Assembly: GCA_035559535.1 (NCBI GenBank)
Contig: DATMBG010000058.1
Location: forward strand, 186,001 to 250,000
DNA length: 64,000 bases
DNA from: Candidatus Limnocylindrales bacterium
Lineage (GTDB): Bacteria > Moduliflexota > Moduliflexia > Moduliflexales > JAUQPW01
Reading direction: 5' to 3'
Below, piece by piece: positions 13,225 to 15,054 of the stretch. The position numbers and the translations under genes are program-made. Under the pieces are notes generated by a model. The model was not told the DNA's origin and searched no databases. It saw nothing but the letters and a program-made list of their open reading frames with translations. The number at the start of each line of letters is the position of its first letter. Within the stretch, counting starts at the first letter, position 1.

Positions 13225-13540
13225 TTCTCACCCAACCCCCTCACTTCCCTAGGCGCCAGGTTAGGGTGCCCGCACCGGTCCCTCCCCCCCTGCCCGCGGG
13301 GGAATCCCCCCGTTCACGGGGGGAGAGGGGAGAGAGGGAACTTCGCTTCAAAGTTCCTTCCCCTGCCGGACGGAGGAAGGTCAGGAAGGGAGCCCTCATA
13401 GGGGTATCTTTTTATTCCCCTAATCCCCTGACCCCCTTCCCGATGCGGGAAGGGAAGTCGGAGGGTCAGGTTCAAACAACCTGACCCTGAAGGGTCAACG
13501 GGGAGGGGACCGAGGGGTAAAGGGAGTGAGGCGAGTCGAT
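13225..13540. repeat. Cluster of GC-rich palindromic repeats
   Basis: Upstream of the beta-helix gene there is no gene but a run of nested inverted repeats: CCTCCCCCCCTGCCCGCGGG with GGAATCCCCCCGTTCACGGG; GGAACTTCGCTTCAAAGTTCC, the same core as in the 21.9 kb palindrome; CCCTTCCCGATGCGGGAAGGG; and GTCAGGTTCAAACAACCTGAC. These are typical of the intergenic repeats in this window. Confidence 0.7.
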
Positions 13541-13601
13541 CGGCCCTGGTATTATTCTTTATTCTTGCTCCAAATCAGCCACCGGCTGAACATTACACAC
13601 T

Positions 13602-13817
13602 TCAACTCCCACCAAATCCAATGGTTACTTTTCCATTTTCCACAATAACAGGGACATCTCGCCGCCCCTTCGAGTACTCTAGCATGCGCTTCAAATCGTC
13701 TTTGCTTCTATAAACATTGATGTATTCAAATGGAATACCTCTCCTGGCATAATCCTGCCGGGCATCTGAAGTATAGGGTCACGTGTCTTTACCAAAGATT
13801 AAAACTTTTTCGGACAT
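13602..13817 (-). CDS. Glutaredoxin-like selenoprotein (in-frame UGA = Sec)
   Basis: A 71-codon gene hidden by an internal TGA. From ATG 13817 it reads MSEKVLIFGKDT, then TGA as codon 13, then PYTSDARQDYARRGIPFEY, continuing to a DVPVIVENGKVTIGFGG ending and a final TGA. This is the glutaredoxin/thioredoxin-fold layout: beta strand, redox motif U-P-Y-T where glutaredoxins have C-P-Y-C, a helix, then cis-proline in D-V-P-V and a glycine-rich end. A hairpin with a GG-containing loop sits 23 bases after the UGA, as required of bacterial SECIS elements. From memory it resembles families annotated as UXX-star (seleno)proteins. It probably catalyses a selenol-based redox step on an unknown partner. 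It follows the mandelate-racemase-like gene by about 70 bases. selABCD are not in the window. Confidence 0.85.
13743..13781 (-). promoter_or_regulatory. SECIS-like hairpin following the UGA codon
   Basis: Reading the minus strand from the UGA (13781-13779), the arms CCGGCA and TGCC-A-GG pair with one bulged A around a six-base loop, GGATTA. The loop begins 23 bases after the UGA and starts with GG. These match the known geometry of bacterial SECIS elements bound by SelB. The hairpin is inside the coding sequence, as expected for bacteria. Confidence 0.7.
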
Positions 13818-13887: not shown

Positions 13888-15054
13888 TTATTTTATTTCA
13901 AATCGTTGAACGGCTTCTTCATTGAGATCAATTCCAAGCCCGGGCTTCTGAGGTACTTCCAGGAAGCCCTGGACCGGTTGAAGGGGCTCGATTAAGAGAT
14001 CATCAAAATTTACAATATCTGACTCTCTTAAGAAATATTCTACGGTTAAACTATTTGAAGTAGCCGCAACCAGATGAACGTGGATATCCCAAAAATAATG
14101 AGGAGCTACAGGAATATCCCAGCCACCGGCCATATGGGCTACCTTCATCCATTCTGTGATTCCTCCGACAACCGTTACATCCGGCTGTAAGATGTCGGCG
14201 GCTTTTCTCTCGATGAGATCCCGGAACCCCCATCGGGTTCCTTCAATCTCTCCGGTTGCTATAGGAGTTTCCAGGGCAGCTTTAATCTCGGCACTTGCCT
14301 GGATATTATCCGGCATTACCGGTTCTTCAATCCATTGAATGTTATACGCTTCAAATAGACGACCGGCTTTAATGGCCGTTTTAGCATCGGGATAGGCATT
14401 GTTGGCATCTAACATTAGAGAGATATCCTCGCCAATGGCTTCACGAACACGCCGAACCCGCTCTACCTCTTCCTTTAAGGATAGTCGTCCCACCTTTATC
14501 TTTACGGCCTTAAATCCCTTCTCCACATAACCGGCTATTTCATCGGCCAGGTCCAGGGGTGTTTTTCCCTCCCGATAATATCCTCCACTGGCATAGGCCG
14601 GAACTTTATCCCGATATCCTCCCAACAACTTATAAATCGGTTTCTGAACCGCTTTCCCCATGATATCCCAAAGGGCGATATCGATACAGCTAATTCCCCG
14701 GATTATGGCCCCCCGACGTCCTGGAAGAAGGGTATTATAAAACATCTTATGCCAGATGCGTTCCACATCAAAAGGATCTTCACCGATGACCAGATCCTTT
14801 AAAATCGACAAAACCCCTTCTTTTACCAGGCGTCCACCGAAGGAATAACCTATGCCGGTAATTCCTTCATCGGTGATAACCCTGACGATGGTATACTCCC
14901 GCGCTGTAATAACCTTCGTAGAAAAGGCAGTAGGTTGTCTCAACGGGATTCTAACAACCTGGCATTGAATGTCTCTAATTTTAATAGTTGTCCCTCCTAT
15001 GGAGTTTGTCCAAGTATAATTTCGTAGAGAATGATCTTTAAAAAAATACTCCAC
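13888..15054 (-). CDS. Mandelate racemase-type enolase-superfamily enzyme
   Basis: Up to 388 residues. The enolase-superfamily barrel residues are present: KIK (Lys185, Lys187), metal ligands Asp216 (MLDANNAY), Glu243 (WIEEP) and Glu269 (ATGE), and the general base His319 in APHYFWDIHVH. The K-x-K plus histidine arrangement places it in the mandelate racemase subgroup, whose members abstract a proton alpha to a carboxylate (racemases, sugar-acid dehydratases). The substrate is not predictable. The extent given uses GTG 15054, which has a weak AAGGA. An AGGAGG at 14998-14993 lies 7 bases before an in-frame ATT (14985), exactly where family N-termini (IKIRDIQ) begin, so the true start may be ATT. 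It is divergent from the BMP-type transporter, 26 bases away, suggesting a shared control region and substrate. Confidence 0.88.
   Translation of the reverse strand: MEYFFKDHSLRNYTWTNSIGGTTIKIRDIQCQVVRIPLRQPTAFSTKVITAREYTIVRVITDEGITGIGYSFGGRLVKEGVLSILKDLVIGEDPFDVERIWHKMFYNTLLPGRRGAIIRGISCIDIALWDIMGKAVQKPIYKLLGGYRDKVPAYASGGYYREGKTPLDLADEIAGYVEKGFKAVKIKVGRLSLKEEVERVRRVREAIGEDISLMLDANNAYPDAKTAIKAGRLFEAYNIQWIEEPVMPDNIQASAEIKAALETPIATGEIEGTRWGFRDLIERKAADILQPDVTVVGGITEWMKVAHMAGGWDIPVAPHYFWDIHVHLVAATSNSLTVEYFLRESDIVNFDDLLIEPLQPVQGFLEVPQKPGLGIDLNEEAVQRFEIK

Follow-up and report, generated by a model that had tools for sequence, protein, structure and literature searches.

The minus strand of the window (the whole stretch of 64,000 nucleotides analysed here) carries a short open reading frame that starts with an ATG at position 13817 and is interrupted by an in-frame TGA at codon 13 (positions 13781–13779). 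The locus raises the question of whether this is a selenoprotein gene, and if so, where it ends and how many selenocysteine (Sec) residues it encodes. A first-pass annotation had taken the codon 13 TGA as the only Sec codon of a 71-codon gene ending at 13602. The in-frame TGA is present as described, but the TGA at 13602 is a second recoded codon and the real end of the gene is a TAA at positions 13593–13595. The locus represents a true selenoprotein gene that is easily missed and is ordinary in kind, and it has two Sec codons, not one.

The gene occupies positions 13593–13817 (minus strand) and encodes 74 residues plus the TAA stop codon. Past the second TGA (codon 72, positions 13604–13602) the reading frame continues with AGT GTG and then terminates, i.e. 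the C-terminal end is Sec-Ser-Val-stop. The minus-strand translation, with both TGA codons read as Sec, is MSEKVLIFGKDT-U-PYTSDARQDYARRGIPFEYINVYRSKDDLKRMLEYSKGRRDVPVIVENGKVTIGFGGS-U-SV. Codons 13–16 form U-P-Y-T, a UxxT redox motif near the N-terminus, and the segment DVPVIVENGK is also present; both had been pointed out in the first reading of the DNA and are found in the translation. Sec-72 lies on a tail directly after a conserved Gly-Gly. A clear Shine-Dalgarno sequence was not found at the usual distance upstream of the ATG.

The 74-residue sequence was scored against profile models with Cys standing in for Sec. It scores 118.5 bits with the NCBIfam model NF041114, "UXX-star selenoprotein family 1" (curated cut-off 72), over model positions 1–70 of 70. 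The glutaredoxin-like protein on either side of the codon 13 TGA is real. The parent model NF041212 also passes (99 bits, cut-off 66), and there is a match of 39 bits to Pfam Glutaredoxin. The curated glutaredoxin 3 model TIGR02181 gives 36.7 bits, below its cut-off of 90, and the scores with all classical glutaredoxin models are well under their cut-offs. The family is characterized by an in-frame TGA at the C-terminal end, with two more codons before the stop, and the window gene displays exactly this arrangement (TGA AGT GTG TAA, positions 13604–13593). NF041114 is listed in a 2026 review of prokaryotic selenoproteomes as "Distant Grx-like protein 1", with a UxxT motif and two Sec residues (PMC13188914). 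The family match together with this listing makes the window gene a fresh member of a known family. It shares with the family the full-length match, the UxxT motif, the Sec-X-X-stop end and the two Sec residues, and displays no essential difference from it, although the host lineage has few sampled genomes. The gene is thus an added member of an already named family, and its C-terminal second TGA is the family's defining Sec codon. The expectation that standard gene callers miss such a gene holds in part only, as NCBIfam already has a model for the family.

A scan of genome contigs yielded 17 relatives, which together with the window gene make a set of 18 genes. The relatives include Methylomirabilota, Planctomycetota, deltaproteobacterial groups, Nitrospirota, Zixiibacteriota, Chloroflexota and Acidobacteriota; the phylum survey covered four genomes of the window's phylum and one of the phylum of genome G035. 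Codon 13 is TGA in 11 of the 17 relatives and a Cys codon (TGC or TGT) in the other six. A tree of the 18 sequences is mostly unresolved, and the sequences with Cys at position 13 are found in two places on it.

These relatives bear directly on the reading that the first-pass annotation proposed, i.e. that only UGA-13 specifies Sec and UGA-72 is an ordinary stop codon. A protein ending after GFGGS would indeed keep the glutaredoxin core. However, the C-terminal site is TGA in 17/17 relatives and TAA or TAG in none, and the next in-frame stop is situated exactly three codons past the C-terminal TGA in 17 of the 18 genes (four codons in the remaining one), where a stop would be expected by chance in about 5% of genes (3 of the 64 codons being stops). 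In addition, a G-loop hairpin follows the C-terminal TGA in 17/18 genes, as described below, and the NF041114 model includes the Sec-X-X end, which the window protein matches to the last position. With the TGA of the relatives, the stop spacing, the 3′ hairpin and the family model all against it, UGA-72 as an ordinary stop is very improbable and was rejected.

In four loci (L009, L010, L052 and L055) the terminating codon is also a TGA, three codons past the Sec TGA. Two UGA codons nine bases apart must there be read in opposite ways by the cell.

The assembly that contains the window is a draft in 58 contigs, and a pseudogene, or a sequencing or assembly error that turned a Cys codon into TGA, might be considered. 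A separately assembled sister genome (locus L001) has a gene that is 97.8% identical and keeps both TGA codons; there are five differences between the two genes, and every one is at a third codon position. This makes sequencing error or gene decay very unlikely. In other phyla, too, TGA is found at both sites. As far as sequence can decide, both error and pseudogene were rejected on the presence of the TGA codons in independent genomes, and the probability left to them is negligible.

Two hairpins that resemble bacterial SECIS elements are present. The first, candidate SECIS 1 (positions 13743–13764, minus strand), is in the coding region. Its stem is GGCA/TGCC (positions 13759–13756 paired with 13749–13746), the loop is GGATTA (13755–13750), 23 nt past TGA-13, and the predicted energy is −9.5 kcal/mol with flanks, although the core has only 4 bp. 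The second, candidate SECIS 2 (positions 13575–13589, minus strand), is behind the stop codon and reads TCAGCC-GGT-GGCTGA. It has a 6-bp stem, a GGU loop (13581–13583) 18 nt past the second TGA, and a predicted energy of −9.6 kcal/mol. A published model of the bacterial SECIS specifies a loop of 3–9 nt with a G in the first two positions, a stem of 4–16 bp, a spacing of 16–37 nt and an energy of at most −7.5 kcal/mol (PMC13188914), and both hairpins agree with it. The model is loose, however; 12.5% of the 1982 TGA triplets in the window satisfy it, and 1.1% do so with a GGU loop. A single hairpin is therefore weak by itself, and it is the comparison across genes that makes the case. The hairpin described in the first-pass annotation is accordingly real as to its GGATTA loop, its 23-nt spacing and its agreement with the model, but carries little weight alone; the annotation saw one Sec only, and overlooked both Sec-72 and the hairpin with a GGU loop that follows the true stop.

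The comparison was made separately for the two sites. For the 3′ flank, the hairpin had to have a stem of at least 6 bp and a loop with GG or GU near its start. Such a hairpin is found past the C-terminal TGA in 17 of the 18 genes, where 0.39 are expected from shuffled sequences. The loops are mostly GGU or GGUC, and the geometry is the same while the stem sequence varies between lineages. For codon 13, a G-loop hairpin with a stem of at least 4 bp and a spacing of 16–24 was required. It is present in 11 of the 12 genes with TGA (2.1 expected) and in none of the six genes with Cys (1.3 expected). Fisher's exact test, calculated by hand, gives approximately 0.0004 for this split, a value in which independence is overstated owing to near-copy rows. 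The GGU-loop hairpin behind the stop is the better supported of the two SECIS-like elements. A search of the window's own genome with the Rfam model SECIS_1 (RF00031, a eukaryotic-type model) gave no match anywhere, controls included.

The genome that contains the window encodes the complete set of Sec genes that was looked for. These are selA (622.1 bits), selB (408.6 bits), selD (388.6 bits) and a tRNA-Sec gene, selC (74.5 bits; anticodon TCA by ARAGORN), the last on the contig of the window at a distance of about 98 kb. The earlier proposal that the organism uses Sec is thus upheld, and none of the three outcomes that had been named as speaking against the gene was encountered, i.e. a genome without selB/selC, a lack of homologues with Cys or Sec at position 13, or a TGA arising from sequencing error.

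Other loci in the same genome display in-frame TGA codons. The selD gene (L041:1528, contig C29) has one in a GGUAAKL motif, and a hairpin of 7 bp with a GGU loop comes after it. Three further glutaredoxin-like genes (L020:1525, L021:1525 and L022:1519, on contigs C42, C6 and C21) have a TGA at the redox site, the motifs being TGUAAC, TGURPC and ETUPYC, respectively, with a GU-loop hairpin after each. In selD and these three genes the GU or GGU loop hairpins are at the right spacing. YruB-family glutaredoxins are the closest match for two of the three and GrxB for the third, and all three are probably further selenoproteins of the organism. A search of this genome for a UGSC-family selenoprotein gave no match; the controls were silent as well.

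An AlphaFold model based on the 18-sequence alignment (pLDDT 89.7) shows with confidence the beta-alpha-beta-alpha-beta-beta core of glutaredoxins. The core ends shortly past strand four and lacks the final helix of that fold. Among solved structures the closest matches are glutaredoxins (TM-scores of at most 0.80), and they include structures 7c10 and 7c12 of cGrx1 from Clostridium oremlandii, a protein of the same fold in which Sec likewise replaces the catalytic Cys. cGrx1 is a selenoprotein glutaredoxin with a UxxC motif, a second Cys and one Sec (see also PMC13188914). Unlike cGrx1, the window protein has UPYT and a C-terminal Sec and is without the last helix. It has the fold and the cis-Pro loop in common with glutaredoxin 3 (GrxC) and NrdH, but is far under the curated cut-offs for these proteins, with no CPYC and no C-terminal helix. 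In the window protein Sec-13 occupies the position of the catalytic Cys of CPYC, and the usual second Cys is replaced by Thr.

Sequence, genome and comparative tests establish the gene with its two TGA codons, its place in the family, both hairpins and the Sec machinery. The locus almost certainly encodes a two-Sec protein of UXX-star family 1 with a minimal glutaredoxin fold, in which UGA-13 and UGA-72 are each read by means of a separate hairpin. We infer that both UGA codons are translated as Sec in the cell. According to the proposed mechanism, SelB with Sec-tRNA(UCA) would read UGA-13 using the in-frame hairpin in the coding region, and would read UGA-72 through the GGU-loop hairpin just behind the true stop. 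Sec-13 would then take the place that the catalytic Cys has in the CPYC motif of glutaredoxins, and Sec-72 likely serves as a second selenol, replacing the second Cys that is missing from UPYT (in place of UPYC). There is about an even chance that the full arrangement is as follows: one short mRNA with two separate SECIS elements, one in frame for UGA-13 and the other wholly behind the stop for UGA-72, and a pair of selenols that forms an active site or a metal-binding site.

The biochemical role, glutaredoxin-type redox chemistry or metal/metalloid handling, is suggested by the fold only; the protein may be a thiol/selenol redox protein or a selenol carrier that binds metals or metalloids. 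With the same gene model, the main function of a real selenoprotein could be binding or transfer of a metal or metalloid and not disulfide chemistry. Sec in UXX-star proteins has been suggested as a possible metal ligand (PMC13188914), and the UPYT motif without a second Cys and the absence of the C-terminal helix of glutaredoxins are consistent with this. The fold and the cis-Pro loop, on the other hand, are of the glutaredoxin type, and an inspection, mostly by eye, of the genes beside it in the window and of those listed as neighbours in the relatives showed no obvious metal-resistance genes. A metal role is a tentative alternative, somewhat doubtful but to be taken seriously.

In the window, the upstream neighbour of the UXX-star gene is an enolase-superfamily sugar-acid dehydratase-like gene (positions 13888–15054, minus strand) at a gap of 70 bp. 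The order of these two genes and their common strand are kept in the sister genome. Different genes are found beside the UXX-star gene in other lineages, and the context in the window thus yields no functional clue.

Some features of the surroundings may be recorded. In loci of Methylomirabilota and deltaproteobacterial groups, a TIGR00730 gene (LOG-like, Rossmann fold) is found close to the UXX-star gene (L003:473–1138, L005:1268–1933, L008:5325–5981, L009:5280–5945 and L010:5280–5948, the last by sequence only); in three of the five it comes immediately downstream, with the same orientation. In two Zixiibacteriota loci (L011:3153–3371 and L015:4989–5207) a UXX-star gene with Cys at the first site is apparently within an NADH dehydrogenase (nuo)-like cluster, the neighbours having been identified by eye. 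Downstream of the gene, the intergenic stretch at positions 13300–13560 of the window abounds in runs of C/T and in inverted GGGG/CCCC pieces; alignment with the sister genome shows many gaps here and an identity of about 73% beyond position 13530, compared with 97.8% for the gene.

With this gene, a two-Sec family reaches into a bacterial lineage that has been little sampled, and the lineage is shown to use selenocysteine; the gene model is also corrected, an apparent stop being a Sec codon. As a compact natural system, the family lends itself to testing how SelB distinguishes a UGA for Sec from a UGA for termination at a distance of nine bases, and what the glutaredoxin fold gains from a C-terminal selenol.
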